A DNA stretch of 48,612 nucleotides from a virus. The first letter of the stretch is position 1; every line of letters starts with the position of its first letter. Both the position numbers and the translations under genes were made by a program. Location: positions 1 through 48,612 of IMG/VR virus record IMGVR_UViG_3300034073_005326; one strand, given 5' to 3'. Under the pieces are notes generated by a model. That model was not told the DNA's origin. It worked only from the letters and a program-made list of their open reading frames with translations, and did no database searches. Shown here one piece after another: positions 5,815 to 48,171 of the stretch.

Positions 5815-8800
5815 ATGGCAGGTCCTGGCGTTGGTGGTGGAGGCGGTGGTGGTCCGGGCGCAGGCGGCGCGGACCGAGGACAGATAGATTTCATAAGAGA
5901 TCTAAACAAGCACATGCAGGGCCTCTCTGAGGCCACCAAAATTCTTGAGGCGAATTTTGTTTCGCAGACGCAAGCTTTAAAAGAGCTGTGTGCCGCGATG
6001 CAATGTCTTAAGGATCCTCAGATCATAAACTCTTTAACACAAATAAATACTTTACTAGGCTCTCTGCAAGGCGCAGCAGGCGCCGCCGGAGGGTCGTTAA
6101 ACAGAATAGACTCCAGAAGGATCCGGGATCTAAGCACACACGTAGACAGAACCAACAGATCGACCAGAAACCTCAGCGGTGAGTTGCCTAAGCTTGAAAA
6201 GAAGAGTCGCATGGCAAACGTGGCCATGGGTGCTGGCATCGGTGCTGTCAATGGTTTTTCGGCGGCTTTAAAAATGATGGCTGCGCAGGCACGCCTCGCT
6301 GGTAGCATCATATCGGGTCTAGGTGGTTTCATCTTTAACGTCGCTAAAGCCCTCATTAGCATTCCGCTTCAAATATTCAGAAAAATCGTCGACGAGGCTG
6401 ATAAAGCCAACGAAGGCATAGAAGCGTTGTGGGAATCTGCCCAAAAGATGCGAAAAGCCTTCGGCACCCTTGGTGGTCCAACAAACACTGCAATTCAAGG
6501 TACCGCCAAAGCAATGAACCAGTTGAAGATAGAAGGGACCTCCGCGGCAGCCGTCTTCAGCGCATCTCACAATCCGATGGTTCAGCTGGCCGACATGCAG
6601 AATCACCTGATTGAGCTTTATGAACAGAGCGGACCAGCACTCAGGGGTTTTGCAAGTGAGATTGAAAAGACCAACGGCGCCGCCGTCGCCATGCAAAAAG
6701 GTTTAGGCTTGACGAACGAGCAGATGGAGATAATGGCCCAACGTGCAAAGGCATCAGGTGAGGGCATCACAGACTCTTTGGTCGACATGACGAAGCAGGC
6801 GGATCACATGGCACGTGCTTATAAACTAGACGCCAAAGTGATATCAAGGGAGATGGGCAAGGCATCGCAAGACTTCAAGCACTTTGGCAACATATCGAAG
6901 AAAGAGCTCGCCGCCGCGGTGGCTTTCTCACAAAAACTAGGTGTCAGCCTTGAAAAGATCACCGGTTTGTCAGATTCATTCGACACTTTTGATAGCGCGT
7001 CTGAGAACGTCGCGAAGCTGAACTCCGTCATGGGTCTCAACATCGACACCATGGAGATAATGAAGGCGTCAACGCCTGATAAAAAACTTGAAGTCTTGCG
7101 GAAAGAGTTCATCAAGGCTGGCATCGACGGATCTAAGATGGATCATCTAACAAGAAAGCTTGTGGCCTCGTCGACAGGGTTGGGTGATGCTGAGATCATT
7201 GCTGCATTTGACATGAAGAAGAAGAACATCTCACTCAAGGAGATGCAGCAGGAATCCGAAAAGGCCGCCAAAAAGACGATGACCCAGGAAGAAGCCCTGA
7301 CGAAGCTTGCTGACGCGATGGAAAGACTGCAGAAGCCTCGAACTGGGTTGACGGGCGGTGGAGGCATGTTAGGTGCATTTCTGAATGGAATCTCTGAAGG
7401 AATGAGATTGTCGCCTCAGTTTCAAAAGCTCATGCAGCGCACGATGACCACCATTCGAAATGTGTTTGAGTCGGGAAAGAGTCTAGGCTATAAGTTAGGT
7501 GAAATCTTTGGGTCTATCATGAACTCAATAGGAGACATGATAACGAAGATCGCACCTCTGTTCAAGGCCATAGCATCAGAAATAACATCATTCTTAACGA
7601 TCTTTAATGCAGGAGGCAAGGCTGACTTTGGCGCCGTGCTTGAGAGAATCTATAAGAAGTTTTGGGCCTTCTTTGATGCTGAAAGTCAAGAAGGTAAGGG
7701 GCTGCTTAGCGGCGTCAAGAAGCTGTTCTTGCTGTTTGTCAAGGTGATTGGTGATTCTATTCCGTGGATCATGGGAAAGATAGCTGAATTGGCAAGGACC
7801 CTTGCAGATTTCATTAGAGATCCAAAGAAGTACCTCGATAAGGTCGGAGGCACGGGCGGCGGAGGTCAATTCATCGAGATACTCAAGGAGTCATTTGCGA
7901 AGATAAAAGAGGTGCTGCCTGAACTAAAGGCAGCTTTAATTGAACTTTTTGTTGAGGCCTTCAAACGCCTCGATGAGGCATGGCCTTACATATGGCCAGT
8001 ATTACTTTGGTGGTTGAAGGGTGCATTATTAAGGATAGCTTGGTCAACGTTGGCCGGAGCCCTATGGGGAGCGTTAAAAAGCATGGTCCTCGGCGCCTTT
8101 GAGGGATTTGCTAGCGGCGGCTTGCTTACTACGGCCAAAAATCTGTTAAGCAAATTCTTCAATAGCATATTTGGGAAAGCTTTCATCGTCGCAATAATTG
8201 CCGATGCCGCGATAAATGTCAGCAAATCAATAAACAAGTTCAGTGATGATTTACAGGCGCAGGGCTTCGATCCAGCGACAGCAAAGATAGCTGCCGGTAC
8301 CACAGGACTGATTAATACGTTGACATTTGGTCTTCTTCCTGAAGGGCTGCAAGCGCAGATCGCGACAGGAATTGCTAAAATTGCAGATGAACTATTCAAG
8401 GCTGTTGATCAATGGTTCGGACCTGGTTTCTCAGACTCCATGAAAAACTACATGAGTGGTTACCTCGATGTCTTTTCAGGATTTGGCGACCTTCTCGTCG
8501 CCATGTGGAACGGAGACTCGCAGGGTGTCAACGACGCCTTGAGCAAGATGGTAAACGGTCTTTTTGATATGTGGATAGGTCAATTCGAGATGTACGCCAA
8601 TATTCTTTTGAAGATTGGACCGATAATACTTGAATACCTGTACAAAGCATTGGGCTGGATATCTAACAAAATAGGCGACATCTTCTTATCGCTTAAGGAT
8701 CTTCCTCTCGTTGGTCCAATCTTTGAATGGGTAGGAGAGGCATTCAAGACCTTAGGACAGTTTTTTACTGAGGCAGGCGAAGCTTGGGGACAGATCGCCG

Positions 8801-21270: not shown

Positions 21271-21543
21271 ATGAAACTTACACACGCAGCGCTTCGAAGA
21301 TTGATCAAAGAAGAAATACAAAATCTTGCCGAGTCTGACGCCAACCTAGAGACCATCAAGAGTGACGTGTCGAATGTCCTGGACAACTTTGTCAAGTACA
21401 AGAGATATAGCGTCGCCAGCGTTATTTCTGCTGTTTATGCGTGGGCAAACGAGAAAAACGCTGATTTAAATACACGATCAGTAAACAAGGCACAGGACCT
21501 GACATCGCTCGCAGCCCAGCTAAGAAAACAACACGGAATTTGA
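21271..21543 (+). CDS. small protein with MKLT...IKE leader
   Basis: The 90-aa protein starts 9 nt after the polymerase stop. The N-terminus MKLTHAALRRLIKEEIQNL is the same leader type as in the proteins starting at 572, 31458 and 40936, ending at I-K-E|E. The remainder is helical (KSDVSNVLDNFVKYKRYSV, LTSLAAQLRKQHGI). No enzymatic motif is seen. It may be packaged in the capsid if the leader is a targeting tag; the function of the mature part is unknown. Confidence 0.7.
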   Translation: MKLTHAALRRLIKEEIQNLAESDANLETIKSDVSNVLDNFVKYKRYSVASVISAVYAWANEKNADLNTRSVNKAQDLTSLAAQLRKQHGI

Positions 21544-22193: not shown

Positions 22194-22433
22194 ATGTCGG
22201 CCGACGATATTCTTCGCAAGTACATCAGGAACCTTATTGAAGAGGTTAGAGATACCCCACGTGTGGGTGATCAACTAAAAAATGCCGATGGTTCACCTGA
22301 AAGCGGAGATGACAACGATGATGAGAATGAGAAAGAAGTAGACGAGATGAATGTCACAGCCCACATCGTCGGCCCGATGCTTCCTTTTGCAATGAAGACA
22401 CCAGGGAAGAAAAAGAAACCCGGCTGGAGATAA
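22194..22433 (+). CDS. small acidic protein, unknown
   Basis: The 79-aa protein starts 11 nt after the HD gene and follows CTAATATTTAAAGTC without a Shine-Dalgarno. The N-terminus (DDILRKYIRNLIEEVRD) is an amphipathic helix ending in L-I-E|E. A run rich in Asp and Glu and a basic tail (PGKKKKPGWR) follow. Its TAA abuts the ATG of the next gene (TAAATG). Function not recognised. The leader loosely resembles the other I-x-E leaders of the window. Confidence 0.6.
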   Translation: MSADDILRKYIRNLIEEVRDTPRVGDQLKNADGSPESGDDNDDENEKEVDEMNVTAHIVGPMLPFAMKTPGKKKKPGWR

Positions 22434-31457: not shown

Positions 31458-31751
31458 ATGAAAGTCAACGACAAACAAATAAGAAAAGTAATAAAAGAGG
31501 AGCTTGCTAGAGGCATACCTGATTATGCCTTTGTGAGACCCGTTGAGAATGCTGTTGATTTATTAGTGAACGACTTGATTAAATGTCTCGTTGCTCACAT
31601 CAATCAAACTTCACGAGATCCTCAGGCAAGAAACGCAAGATATGCTGCCGCCAACAGAATAGCGGCAGCGTTGCGTCGTGACCGTGAATTTACGAAAGTA
31701 ATAGAAGATAAGTTAAAAGAGAAGCTTCTTATATTTTTTGATGAAGTATAA
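31458..31751 (+). CDS. small protein with MKVN...IKE leader
   Basis: The protein is 97 aa from ATG 31458. The frame extends back to a GTG at 31419 inside nrdJ, but ATG 31458 aligns exactly with the leader of the related small proteins. The leader is MKVNDKQIRKVIKEELARG, ending I-K-E|E. The rest is helical and basic (DLLVNDLIKCLVAHINQTS, ARYAAANRIAAALRRDREF). An 8-bp inverted repeat AAGTATAA/TTATACTT (31744-31751, 31765-31772) spans the stop codon. Function unknown; candidate capsid-internal protein. Confidence 0.7.
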   Translation: MKVNDKQIRKVIKEELARGIPDYAFVRPVENAVDLLVNDLIKCLVAHINQTSRDPQARNARYAAANRIAAALRRDREFTKVIEDKLKEKLLIFFDEV

Positions 31752-39211: not shown

Positions 39212-40381
39212 ATGCAATTGAAGCTTGAAGAGCTACAGAAAGTCGTTAAAAGCGTCGTAAACGACGAAAAATATTCTCATGCGCTGAAGCAAGAGATTAG
39301 CCGTGCTGTTGGAGCAAAGGTCGTTACGACGCATAGCGTAACTGTCATGGCCGAGAGCGCCAACTACCAGCTTGACATTTTTGAGAAGACAGGCAGGTCA
39401 ATGCCTCACGCGAAGGCTTCTATATTACTGAAACACGTGAATTCTGACAGCGTTGAAGTAAGAAAGCTTGTTGCAAGATTACTTCCTGAAAGCCATGTCA
39501 AAGCGATGATCGATGATCGACACCCAGCAGTACGGGCTGTCTTGGTCAAAAGATTGCCTCTTGACCTTGCTTCGAAGCTCGCAACGAGGCACAAGTCTGA
39601 CGACAATGTTCAGACGCAGTATCGTTTAAGAAAACTGACAGAGTCAGTCAAGGTCGACGACAAAGAATTTGACATGTATGGTGACATGCATGTCGAAGAC
39701 GCCTTTGATGGCCTCGAACATCCTGGTCTGACAGACGAATGGTATAATACACTGGCCCACAGGATTATCAATGGTCCAACTGCCTACGGAAACAATCTTG
39801 AAGGCAATTGGGAAGAAAAGATAGCGAAGAACATTTGTGATAGCTACAAATCTCAAGGCATTGAGGTTGATCATGAAAAGCTATTAGATGCCGTCTATGA
39901 CCACATGGAGATGCGCGACGCCGACATAATAAAGGCCAGCGAGAACAGAAGAGGTTCATCGGGAGGCAGCGTTGATGAGTCCGTGCTAAAAGGCATCGTT
40001 AGAAGTCTTCGATTACACGAGAATCTTGACGAGCCTTTTATGCCTATCATATCAGAAGAAATAGACCTCGTCGAGTCTTTGGTTGAGTCGGTAATGCCTT
40101 CTAGGAATTACATTGAAAAATTTGAAGAGCTTTTTGAAGTCACCAAGGAAGCAACTTATAACGTTGGAAAAAAACAAGGCATAAATGAGGGTTACTCCAA
40201 GGTTATCGCTCCTTCAACAGCTACGGTTCCATATGGAAATTTAAGAGCTGTTGATGAAAAAGCCTTGAATGCGTATGTAAAGAATTGGAATTTGCAGCGG
40301 TCGTTAAAGAATCAACCTTACAAGATATCATGGTCCCCTGCCGCTGCATCAAGCGTGAAGTTTCACTTGGAGGTCGTATGA
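39212..40381 (+). CDS. large helical protein with HEAT-like segment, unknown
   Basis: The 389-aa protein starts at ATG 39212 after GTAGGAGTC, with an ATATTTAG box at 39183. Residues about 65-135 contain short helical repeats of the kind VNSDSVEVRKLVARLLPES and DDRHPAVRAVLVKRLPLDLA, reminiscent of HEAT-type repeats. A conserved-looking MYGDMHVEDAFDGLEHPGLTD block and EGNWEEKIAKNICDSYKSQG follow. The C-terminus is helical and acidic. No catalytic motif recognised. It is coupled to the ferritin-like gene by an ATGA overlap, and could be a virion or scaffold protein. Confidence 0.65.
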   Translation: MQLKLEELQKVVKSVVNDEKYSHALKQEISRAVGAKVVTTHSVTVMAESANYQLDIFEKTGRSMPHAKASILLKHVNSDSVEVRKLVARLLPESHVKAMIDDRHPAVRAVLVKRLPLDLASKLATRHKSDDNVQTQYRLRKLTESVKVDDKEFDMYGDMHVEDAFDGLEHPGLTDEWYNTLAHRIINGPTAYGNNLEGNWEEKIAKNICDSYKSQGIEVDHEKLLDAVYDHMEMRDADIIKASENRRGSSGGSVDESVLKGIVRSLRLHENLDEPFMPIISEEIDLVESLVESVMPSRNYIEKFEELFEVTKEATYNVGKKQGINEGYSKVIAPSTATVPYGNLRAVDEKALNAYVKNWNLQRSLKNQPYKISWSPAAASSVKFHLEVV

Positions 40382-40932
40382 AACGAAAGCAGCTTTCTGA
40401 GGATGTTTATGTCGTTATCGAACCGAACAGCGATGTCATATTCGATAACATGATGGCTGAGTGGAAAGGTTTACCTTACTGTCAGCTGTCTGTCGTTTTG
40501 TCACATTTGAAGTTTCTTGCGACCCTTCATGAGAATCATCATTGGACATGTATGGGAGATCCCTTTTATGGTGATCATCTTCTTTTTTCAAGACTATACG
40601 AAGCGGTCGACGCAGAAATTGATCCTGTTGCTGAAAAAGCAGTCGGACTGGCCAGCACTTCAAACGTTGATCCGCTGATCATTCATTCGCAGATCGTGAA
40701 GCTTCTTTCTGGTGTCGGCTCTGCTTCTATGATTCCCCAATCGTCTGATCTTGCAAGAAAATCTCTTGTTGCCGAAATGAACTTTTTGAAAGTGATTGAC
40801 AGCTGCAGGTCGTCATTGGAAGAGTGTGGAATGCTATCGAATGGAGTAGACAACATGCTTCAGGACATTGCTGATAAGCATGAAGGGCATGTTTATCTGC
40901 TAAAACAGAGATGCTCAAAGCCAGCGGTGTGA
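40378..40932 (+). CDS. Dps/ferritin-like protein
   Basis: The protein is 184 aa from ATG 40378, with GGAGG upstream, overlapping the previous stop. The core LHENHHWTCMGDPFYGDHLLF...EAVDAEIDPVAEKAVGL matches the Dps inter-subunit ferroxidase region. H55, H67, D82 and E86 align with E. coli Dps H51, H63, D78 and E82 at identical spacing. The residue equal to D67 is Ser71. The C-terminal helix GVDNMLQDIADKHEGHVYLL fits the last helix of the fold. Dps proteins store iron, remove peroxide and bind DNA as dodecamers. Here it could protect DNA from oxidative damage or be a virion component. Confidence 0.7.
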   Translation: MKRKQLSEDVYVVIEPNSDVIFDNMMAEWKGLPYCQLSVVLSHLKFLATLHENHHWTCMGDPFYGDHLLFSRLYEAVDAEIDPVAEKAVGLASTSNVDPLIIHSQIVKLLSGVGSASMIPQSSDLARKSLVAEMNFLKVIDSCRSSLEECGMLSNGVDNMLQDIADKHEGHVYLLKQRCSKPAV

Positions 40933-40935
40933 AAA

Positions 40936-41430
40936 ATGAAAATTACATTGAATCAATTAAAACAACTAATAGCTGAAGAGGTTTCTTTAGCTAAAACTAA
41001 CGACAAAGATCCACAGCGTTTTCTTCATGGCTTTGATTCCGGTAATCCCATGGATGATGAAGGCTCCATGCTAAAATCAAGAATGTCTAACATAAAGGAC
41101 ATGGCGTCGACAATCTGCGATCTTCTTGAAAACGGTGATCAAGTGCCAGCGTGGTGTCAAGACCTCGTCGCAGGTGCCCACCGCGATCTTGAACACGTCA
41201 AGGATTATATGCTAGGCGATCAAAAAATGCGTGACAAAAAAGCCAAGCAGCAGATGCAGCCCAATCCAATGCCGACAACTGTTCCAATGGTTGCCAGTGA
41301 GGCTTACATGCGTAAGTTTAGCAGGCTTACTGAGAGCTTCGCAAGAATAACAGAAAAAGAAATGCAGGCTTGGAAAAATGGCGATTGGGGCTATGTCCAA
41401 GGCGATGATTCTGAACCAGAAGACCTGTAG
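40936..41430 (+). CDS. protein with MKIT...IAE leader, possible capsid-internal protein
   Basis: The 164-aa protein starts 3 nt after the ferritin-like gene. The leader MKITLNQLKQLIAEEVSLAK ends at I-A-E|E, identical in its last three residues to the T4 capsid-targeting site (F-I-A-E). The middle (MLKSRMSNIKDMASTICDLL, VPAWCQDLVAGAHRDLEHVKDYM) resembles a small helical domain common in aquatic phage proteins. The C-terminus is acidic (GDDSEPEDL). It sits between the ferritin-like and nucleotidyltransferase-like genes. Function unknown. Confidence 0.7.
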   Translation: MKITLNQLKQLIAEEVSLAKTNDKDPQRFLHGFDSGNPMDDEGSMLKSRMSNIKDMASTICDLLENGDQVPAWCQDLVAGAHRDLEHVKDYMLGDQKMRDKKAKQQMQPNPMPTTVPMVASEAYMRKFSRLTESFARITEKEMQAWKNGDWGYVQGDDSEPEDL

Positions 41431-44419: not shown

Positions 44420-45037
44420 TTACTTTTCAGATGGCCACTTACCTATAGCTTTATGCATCATCCATGCTGCCGCTGCGGCAGGTTCTTTTGCCCAACCTGA
44501 AACTTTTTGCATCTTTTGAGCAAAAGTTTTTGTTCCTTTAAGTATTTTTTGTGCCGCTTTTTTTGAAGGACCTTTTCTTTTCTTTGATTCATTCATTCCG
44601 CACTCACACATGGATTCATTCATTCCGCACTCATCACAGACCTTATCAGCCTCTTTTAAGTACTCTTCTGATGCTTCTTCAGAAGCCATAGTATACCAAT
44701 TTGAATCCGAGGTATCGCTGCATCCACACGATCCTGCTGCAGGCATTTGGTTGCAGTGCGGACATTCTTCACCACATCCACATGAGCCGTCTACAACCAT
44801 CATTCCGCAATCATCGCAACAATCGGAGTCATCTTCTCCGACGCTAAGCACGCCTTCTTCATCTTCATAACCTTCATTAGATTCATCACATCCACACATG
44901 CCTTCAACGACAGGCATTTCACAGTCAGGACATGTTTCTTCATCACGAACGCCTACGGCTCCAACGGAGGTTATGCCTGGCACTTCGCCGATAGGTGTAC
45001 CAAATTTTTCATTTAAAAGGCTGCTGTAATCTTTCAT
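44420..45037 (-). CDS. cysteine-rich four-repeat metal-binding protein with T4-like capsid-targeting N-terminus
   Basis: The 205-aa protein begins MKDYSSLLNE|KF, parallel to T4 MKTYQEFIAE|A in length, the MK.Y opening and the acidic cleavage residue. Four cysteine modules follow: C36/C39/C48/C50, C74/C77/C86/C88, C92/C95/C104/C106 and C134/C137/C144/C146. The first three share CxxC..MP/M..GxCGC; the last is compact. Acidic linkers separate them. The C-terminus is basic (SKKRKGPSKKAAQKILKG) and ends AAAAAWMMHKAIGKWPSEK. It resembles stacked zinc ribbons. Convergent with guaB with no spacer. Function unknown; capsid-packaged, host-binding protein is one hypothesis. Confidence 0.65.
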   Translation of the reverse strand: MKDYSSLLNEKFGTPIGEVPGITSVGAVGVRDEETCPDCEMPVVEGMCGCDESNEGYEDEEGVLSVGEDDSDCCDDCGMMVVDGSCGCGEECPHCNQMPAAGSCGCSDTSDSNWYTMASEEASEEYLKEADKVCDECGMNESMCECGMNESKKRKGPSKKAAQKILKGTKTFAQKMQKVSGWAKEPAAAAAWMMHKAIGKWPSEK

Positions 45038-46343: not shown

Positions 46344-47174
46344 ATGGATCTAAACGTTGTCCACAGGGGCACAGCCCTTGACTTGCTTTGTTCGATTCCT
46401 AATGAATCAATCGATCTTATCTACACCGATCCTCCGTTCGGCACAGGAAACACACAGACGATGGACCGGAAGAAGGCCGGGAAAACCGTCTCTAAAATTG
46501 AGTATAGCGATAAGTACGAGAATTACCTCGATTTTCTTGAGCCTCACCTGATTGAAATGCACAGGGTTCTGAAACCTACTGGTACCATGTACCTCCACAT
46601 GGACTGGAGGTGGGTACACTATGCTAAGGTGATGTGTGATGGAATCTTTGGAATGGAAAACTTCCTCAACGAGGTTGTTTGGTCCTACAACTTTGGTGGA
46701 CGAGGAAAGGATCGTTGGCCTCAGAAGCATGACACCATCCTTGTCTACACCAAGGAGATGGGCAAGCACACTTTCAATTGGAAAGATATAGACAGGATTC
46801 CATATGCCGCACCAGAGCTACAGTATGTTGGTAGATCGAGGGAAGAGGCAGAGAAAAGAATAGCTGAAGGTCAGGTTCCAACAGACGTGTGGAGCATGAG
46901 CATCGTAGGAACAGCGTCCAAAGAGAGAATAGGATACCCCAACCAGAAACCAATTAAATTAATGAAGCGTGCAATTGTTGCATCGTCAAATGAAGGAGAC
47001 ATTGTTCTTGATCCTTTTGGAGGGTCGGGTTCAACAGCGGCCGCGGCTATGGAAGCAAATAGAAAATTCATTACAGGTGATTCAAGCCCAGACGCAATCC
47101 AAACAATGCGCAACAGGTTTACAGGGCTTGACGTAAAATTTATAGAAAGTAAATTAGGAGAAAACAATGGCTAA
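46344..47174 (+). CDS. DNA N-methyltransferase (beta class, second copy)
   Basis: The 276-aa protein has motif IV as YTDPPFGTG (29-34) and a C-terminal SAM-binding LDPFGGSGSTAAAAMEANRKF. The interval contains MHRVLKPTGTMYLHMDWRW and YPNQKPIKLMKRAI, both characteristic of beta-class enzymes. It is distinct from the enzyme at 35774 (DPPF instead of DPPY, different spacing). It could methylate a different site, or act as an orphan. It overlaps the actin-like gene by 8 nt. Confidence 0.85.
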   Translation: MDLNVVHRGTALDLLCSIPNESIDLIYTDPPFGTGNTQTMDRKKAGKTVSKIEYSDKYENYLDFLEPHLIEMHRVLKPTGTMYLHMDWRWVHYAKVMCDGIFGMENFLNEVVWSYNFGGRGKDRWPQKHDTILVYTKEMGKHTFNWKDIDRIPYAAPELQYVGRSREEAEKRIAEGQVPTDVWSMSIVGTASKERIGYPNQKPIKLMKRAIVASSNEGDIVLDPFGGSGSTAAAAMEANRKFITGDSSPDAIQTMRNRFTGLDVKFIESKLGENNG

Positions 47175-48171
47175 AGGTTTAGACGTCGGTACATCATTCA
47201 TCGTTCTTGCATCTGAGGGTTCAAAGGGCAAGGTGGTCTACAAGGACTTCCGGGACGCATTCTACGTCCTCAAGCCAACAACACCGATCGCCGCCAAGAT
47301 GATCGAAAAGGGTTTGGCTGGCAAGACATTTGTCAAGGACACTGATGGTTCATTCATCCTCCTCGGCTCCGACGCAATCGAAAAGGCCGTGGAGAGAAAC
47401 GACTCGGCGAAGCGTCCAATGTACCGTGGTGTCGTATCATCCAAGGAAAAGGATGCCCGTCGCATTTTGACATACATCCTCAAGGAGGTCGCAGCCTCAC
47501 CCTCCGAGCCCGGTGAAAAGCTAGTCTTCTGCGTCCCTGCTCAACCAATCGATCAAGAAGACGACGATTTCGACGTTGGTTACCATGAGGACGTCATCGT
47601 CAAGCTCCTCGCCGAGGTCGGTTACGATGCTCGTGCCATCAACGAGGCCGAGGCGCTTTGCTACTCTGAACTCGACAAGGATGACTACACAGGTGTCTGC
47701 CTCTCATGGGGCGCAGGTATGGTCAACGTCTGCGTCATGCTCAACGGTGAACCTGTGGTCAAGTTCTCCACCACAAAGTCCGGTGATTGGGTCGATCGTA
47801 TGTCCGCAGTCGCGACAGGTGAGACAGATTCAATTGTCCAGGCCGAAAAAGAGTCAGGAGAGTTCACCGTCGGTCAACCCAACGATAACCAGGTCCTCGC
47901 CGCTGTGGCAGCCTATTATGAACGTCTTATCGACTACACTACGAAGCAACTTGCAGCGGCGATGGACGGCCACAAGTCACTTCCAAAATTCAAGGGTGAT
48001 CTTCCAGTCGTGGTTGCAGGTGGTACATCCAAGGCCAAGGGATTCGTCGACATGTTTGCTTCAAAGTTGAAGGACAATGGCTTCCCACTTCCTGTCAAAG
48101 AGGTACGCCACGCAGCAGATCCCCTACATGCCGTTGCTCGTGGATGTTTAATCGCAGCCCAGGTGATGTAA
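47167..48171 (+). CDS. actin/ParM-like ATPase
   Basis: The 334-aa protein starts at ATG 47167 with AGGAGAAAACA upstream. It shows the actin-superfamily phosphate loops: KGLDVGTSFIVLASE (phosphate 1), CLSWGAGMVNVCVMLNGEPV (phosphate 2) and VVVAGGTSKAKGFVDMF (adenosine motif). An intermediate LLAEVGYDARAINEAEALC connects them. It lacks an Hsp70 substrate domain, so a filament-forming or FtsA/ParM-type protein is likely. Possible roles are positioning phage DNA or virion parts in the cell. Close relatives with proven function cannot be named from sequence alone. Confidence 0.75.
   Translation: MAKGLDVGTSFIVLASEGSKGKVVYKDFRDAFYVLKPTTPIAAKMIEKGLAGKTFVKDTDGSFILLGSDAIEKAVERNDSAKRPMYRGVVSSKEKDARRILTYILKEVAASPSEPGEKLVFCVPAQPIDQEDDDFDVGYHEDVIVKLLAEVGYDARAINEAEALCYSELDKDDYTGVCLSWGAGMVNVCVMLNGEPVVKFSTTKSGDWVDRMSAVATGETDSIVQAEKESGEFTVGQPNDNQVLAAVAAYYERLIDYTTKQLAAAMDGHKSLPKFKGDLPVVVAGGTSKAKGFVDMFASKLKDNGFPLPVKEVRHAADPLHAVARGCLIAAQVM

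Follow-up and report, generated by a model that had tools for sequence, protein, structure and literature searches.

Does a small cysteine-rich protein encoded in a 48.6-kb IMG/VR virus record travel in the phage head, and is it sent there by its first ten residues, MKDYSSLLNE, which the initial annotation of the record had compared with the T4 capsid-targeting decapeptide? The whole stretch of DNA that we analyzed, at its full length, is called the window below, and the features discussed are collected in Table 1.

Table 1. Positions in the window of the Cys-rich protein gene, its parts and associated elements
Feature	Position	Strand	Basis or remark
Cys-rich protein gene, 205 aa, stop codon included	44420..45037	-	ORF, ten orthologous lineages, dN/dS ~0.1
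aa 1-17, MKDYSSLLNEKFGTPIG: predicted helix ending LxE, then conserved FGxP	44987..45037	-	Family alignment, model (helix 3-12); Tyr4 not conserved
Cys module 1, CPDCEMPVVEGMCGC, aa 36-50	44888..44932	-	Alignment, module pattern
Cys module 2, CDDCGMMVVDGSCGC, aa 74-88	44774..44818	-	Alignment, module pattern
Cys module 3, CPHCNQMPAAGSCGC, aa 92-106	44720..44764	-	Alignment, module pattern
Cys module 4, CDECGMNESMCEC, aa 134-146	44600..44638	-	Alignment, module pattern
C-terminal domain (conserved), aa 155-205, with three helices predicted; relative of a small domain in head maturation protease/MuF proteins	44423..44575	-	
ATATTTA element, 6 nt before start codon	45044..45050	-	ATATTTA/ATACTTA in all ten lineages
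21-nt direct repeat, copy 1	44586..44606	+	
21-nt direct repeat, copy 2	44613..44633	+	
Linked neighbor, MKIT-leader protein	40936..41430	+	Homologues in L073, L079, L085 carry the same C-terminal domain

Results

The gene and its family

The architecture that had been read from the ORF at the outset, with the MKDYSSLLNE start, four CxxC...CxC modules, acidic linkers and a basic tail, is all present in the minus-strand 205-residue translation, which has 17 cysteines in total, acidic linkers and a Lys-rich C-terminus. An overlapping contig, L001, carries an identical gene (protein identity 100%). A search of IMG/VR contigs that started from the syntenic orthologue in L006/L025 and from the conserved tail gave orthologues in L018-L020, L021, L023, L024, L026, L027, L028, L036, L070 and L074/G015, which make up ten lineages when close sets are counted once and the window is included. 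Because pairwise dN/dS is low (0.08-0.16 in six of seven orthologue pairs, with dS saturated in the seventh), we conclude that the ORF is a genuine, protein-coding phage gene under purifying selection. Synteny is largely conserved: in most orthologous loci, L070 excepted, the gene is antisense to an IMP dehydrogenase gene, the two being arranged tail to tail, and a volactin-like or dUTPase-like gene usually lies nearby on the other flank. In the L036 orthologue (about 7995-8583) a break in the frame separates the N-terminal from the C-terminal part, suggesting either a sequencing error or a decaying gene.

No relative of the whole protein was found in Pfam, PHROGs, PDB sequences, named phages or plasmids, and GTDB genomes held no orthologue; as far as the libraries searched go, the protein represents an undescribed family. 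One PDB sequence match, to the de novo helical barrel 9r2b (E=0.0016), was rejected as compositional. In AlphaFold2 predictions for the family, the only parts to form are the helix at the N-terminus and the domain at the C-terminus, and the knuckles are of low confidence; Foldseek searches with both models returned nothing usable.

What is most constant at the N-terminus is the end of the helix, which is [LI]xE in all ten lineages (LNE in the window) and is followed by FGxP. Since the residue after [LI]xE varies (M, K, T, A, N or R) and FGxP stands directly behind it, the motif may be conserved for reasons other than cleavage.

Cysteine modules and a tandem repeat

The four modules of the window protein are short and of the form CxxC-(6 or 8)-CxC, and its orthologues, L070 left out, have from two to six modules that fit the pattern of CxxC plus CxC. 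A perfect 21-nt direct repeat with a spacing of 27 nt lies exactly where it had been reported, and the likelihood of such a match arising by chance inside 618 nt is negligible. The accompanying proposal, that the last module grew by tandem duplication, needs one qualification: the module design predates the repeat, because the same arrangement, CxECGMxExxCxCGM, is found in L018, L021 and L026 without the exact repeat of the window. The L018 orthologue (7488-8207) has six Cys modules and a 19-nt repeat of its own, with a 66-nt period, which is an independent module duplication.

Do these modules bind metal? The window protein matched no curated zinc-finger family in Pfam. In the diverged orthologue L070, CPECG...CHDCG occupies the same place and resembles the small zinc ribbons of the Lar family (PF14354), with a score just below the cut-off (27.9 versus 28.6 bits); the window protein differs from that family in its four short modules. 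Based on the Cys spacing and the zinc-ribbon orthologue, metal binding is likely, and the four-cysteine knuckles probably bind zinc.

A C-terminal domain that resembles one in head proteins

The last 50 residues, with three short predicted helices, are the best conserved part of the Cys-rich protein. The L070 tail matched phrog_6439 (E=0.0025), and the comparison of the C-terminal domain with the head-protease domain in hhalign gave 97% and a score of 51.8, where 100 column shuffles reached no more than 14.1; the score of 51.8 is optimistic in that the homology set was found by a search with one orthologue's tail. Proteins that bear this domain are annotated as head maturation protease, prohead protease or capsid maturation protease/MuF fusion, and its carriers include the Streptomyces phages Abt2graduatex2 and phiSAJS1, the haloviruses HCTV-2 and HHTV-2, and vir519. 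The likeness to the Cys-rich tail lies in a helical segment, DPxxLxAWxxHxxTGKWPxE (profile similarity 97%). There are also clear differences: in the Cys-rich family the domain forms the end of a separate knuckle protein, whose gene stands outside the head cluster among metabolic genes, and the conserved Cys pair of the phrog_6439 domain (in its first and second helix) is lost, with Lys/Asp and Ala in its place. We looked in the relatives for a paralogue or a second copy of the C-terminal domain and found none.

The window is a fragment with no head genes, so the type of head is taken from its relatives, in which a gp21-type protease (G001, G002, G003, G013 and G015) and a gp23-type capsid protein (G001-G003) are encoded. 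By position, the capsid protein of these relatives could be cut after VLKE, a site that fits the L/I-x-E rule of gp21-type cleavage.

A recurring leader on otherwise unrelated proteins

A leader of a different kind recurs in these phages. The N-terminal pattern [LIV]R.[LIVF][ILVFM].E is present in 30 of the 588 proteins of the window, G001 and G002, versus 13 of 4611 internal windows (p ~2e-19, an optimistic value, as the counted proteins include homologues between contigs), and the excess is seen also in G013 and G015. The leader is of the type MKITxxxLRxIIKEE, with MKITVSQLRKIIKEE and MKLTHAALRRLIKEE as typical forms, and the proteins that bear it, encoded in the window at 572-919, 21271-21543, 22194-22433, 31458-31751 and 40936-41430, are otherwise unrelated. 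In both G001 and G002 a 100-residue protein with an MKLT leader is encoded between the protease and capsid genes. Many of the leaders end in IxE, which is the kind of motif that gp21 cuts. We consider the MKIT-type leader a candidate head-targeting or processing signal and, for the signal that the lineage shares for targeting to the head, a better candidate than the T4 decapeptide.

A functional link between the Cys-rich and the leader-bearing proteins is suggested by L073 (7331-7942), L079 and L085, in which the C-terminal GKWP domain is fused to an MKLT-leader homologue of the 40936-41430 protein. The stretch ITExEMxAWKxGxWGYVxGD is near the N-terminus of the L073/L079/L085 protein and at the C-terminus of the window protein 40936-41430, and this shift, together with the fused GKWP domain, looks to be domain shuffling.

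An element directly upstream of the start codon

In all ten lineages ATATTTA, or its form ATACTTA in L021, L026 and L027, stands 5-6 nt before the start codon. Across the window, G001 and G002, ATATTTA is enriched at this place and on this strand (13 versus 0-5 per 5-nt bin, with 2 in antisense), and the enrichment is found again in G015 (7 versus 0-2) and not in G013. At the start-proximal site, ATA[TC]TTA precedes 8 of 29 leader genes versus 12 of 559 other genes. We infer that ATATTTA may be a promoter, possibly a late one, with the transcript starting at or near the ATG (near-leaderless). Hardly any start has the T4 late promoter, TATAAATA, close to it, and a search within one literature library found nothing on the exact T4 peptide or on leaderless late promoters with TATAAATA. 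ATATTTA is also seen upstream of window positions 1543, 22194 and 45037 (minus).

Discussion

A head-associated role is, in our view, the likeliest reading of the Cys-rich protein, one that we hold with moderate confidence and on grounds that are independent of the T4 decapeptide. Indirect support for head association can be found in the T4-type protease and capsid protein of the relatives, in the resemblance of the C-terminal domain to a head maturation protease/MuF domain, in the fusion of that domain to the MKLT-leader neighbor, in an ATA[TC]TTA element that is present in every lineage and also found before leader genes, and in the invariant [LI]xE, of the kind that gp21 cuts. If purifying selection and the zinc-ribbon orthologue are also counted, the protein may be described more specifically as an accessory protein peculiar to this lineage of T4-type phages that is probably made late, associated with the head or prohead core and equipped with zinc knuckles. 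We give this description a little under an even chance, and its timing, its place in the head, the zinc, the docking and the trimming are all things that we infer. Counting against the head reading are the position of the gene among metabolic genes, the lack of head genes in the window, the lost Cys pair and the ambiguity of [LI]xE.

How might such a protein work in the head? The N-terminal helix closes with [LI]xE, FGxP comes next, and a variable string of four-cysteine knuckles follows; at the far end is the small, basic, helical C-terminal domain, with relatives embedded in the head maturation protease/MuF proteins of other tailed phages. We propose that this domain, perhaps together with the N-terminal helix, would dock the protein on the core of the prohead or on the capsid machinery, that the knuckles would offer a compact, metal-stabilised surface for contact with DNA or protein, and that [LI]xE may be where the prohead protease trims the N-terminus.

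Could the protein instead act outside the head? The metabolic and nucleotide genes around it would suit a zinc-knuckle regulator that works in the cytoplasm during infection, binding either nucleic acid or a protein of host or phage, and is never in the head, as would the basic C-terminal domain, the multiple knuckles and the zinc-ribbon orthologue L070. Such a regulator would not, however, be expected from a C-terminal domain that resembles a head-protein domain, nor from an upstream element that is also found before leader genes, and we regard it as possible rather than probable.

Head association, if it holds, would add the Cys-rich protein to the few known cargo proteins of phages and would mean that distant phages load their T4-type heads via different signals. 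Direct and testable candidates for these signals are the leader that recurs and the portable C-terminal domain. These two could even constitute a head-loading code of the lineage's own, in which the shared MKITxxxLRxIIKEE-type leader, with its prohead-protease motif end, and the portable GKWP domain load small accessory proteins, the multi-knuckle protein included, into the head for delivery; in this full form we think the idea unlikely.

What, then, of the decapeptide itself? In T4 IPIII, targeting is determined mainly by residues 4 and 7 and processing by residues 8 and 10 (PMC9026906). The window protein has both targeting residues, Y4 and L7, but Y4 is not conserved across the family. In the alignment of N-termini, Tyr4 is present in 3 of 10 lineages, MKDYSSLLNEKFGTP (window), MDKYEKILEEAFGEP (L023) and MDKYDRMLEEAFGEP (L024), and is not in MKKNLEKTLVEMFGDP (L018), MKNNLEKTILEMFGEP (L021), MKKNVEKTILEMFGDP (L028), MKKNLEKQLLEMFGDP (L036), MKNKNLVETFGEP (L025), MKTKHDRIIEENFGMP (G015) or MKKQQFDETARRMFKILVERFGEP (L070). 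Among the orthologues, only MDKYEKILEEAFG and MDKYDRMLEEAFG keep it, and the starts that lack it include MKKNLEKTLVEMFG, MKNNLEKTILEMFG, MKNKNLVETFG, MKTKHDRIIEENFG and MKKQQFDETARRMFKILVERFG. The N-terminal segment itself ranges from 8 to ~20 residues, and M-K-x-Y is not conserved.

We scanned called genes for the pattern M[KR]x[YF]xx(hydrophobic)(hydrophobic)xE, the calls having been made by a simple script and individual start sites being approximate. The scan recovered IPII and IPIII in 84 kb of T4 as a positive control. In the window and G007 it matched the Cys-rich protein only, and none of the other called proteins of the window, G001, G002, G013 and G015 had it. The single match among 588 proteins, where 0.054 were expected from column-shuffled N-termini, is mildly unusual, given that the pattern was chosen post hoc.

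The Cys-rich protein does share features with T4 IPI, IPII and IPIII, being small, with a short, helix-like N-terminal segment that ends in [LI]xE, and having relatives of its phage with a T4-type protease and capsid protein. It differs from them in the unconserved Tyr4 and variable length, in a mature part that is unrelated to the IP proteins, and in a tag that is absent from the other proteins of the window phage, whereas T4 has it on IPII and IPIII. That MKDYSSLLNE truly is a capsid-targeting sequence of the T4 type, with cleavage after LNE, on a protein injected with the DNA is made conceivable by the fit at residues 2, 4, 7, 8 and 10, by Y4 and E10 in the two orthologues L023 and L024 and by the T4-type protease of the relatives. 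Against this, seven of the ten lineages lack Tyr4, and it is a different leader that recurs. The reading of the N-terminus as a T4 decapeptide, proposed in the initial annotation, is thus not supported, most of the homologues having been found to start without Tyr4, and we judge it very unlikely.

The window and all of the compared loci have a Dps-like gene near the gene of the Cys-rich protein, whose cysteines could suit a partnership with the Dps-like protein in iron or redox handling. The CxxC-CxC spacing and the zinc-ribbon orthologue favor zinc, however, and the searches showed no resemblance to any redox protein, so that we hold such a partnership to be highly improbable. The Dps-like protein itself (window 40378-40932) matches phrog_3636 (E=1.4e-10). 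A volactin-family actin homologue is encoded at window 47167-48171 (PF25216, E=1.2e-64); it is 88-89% identical in several relatives, and homologues with 32-37% identity are present in the huge phages LR745208 and LR756511.
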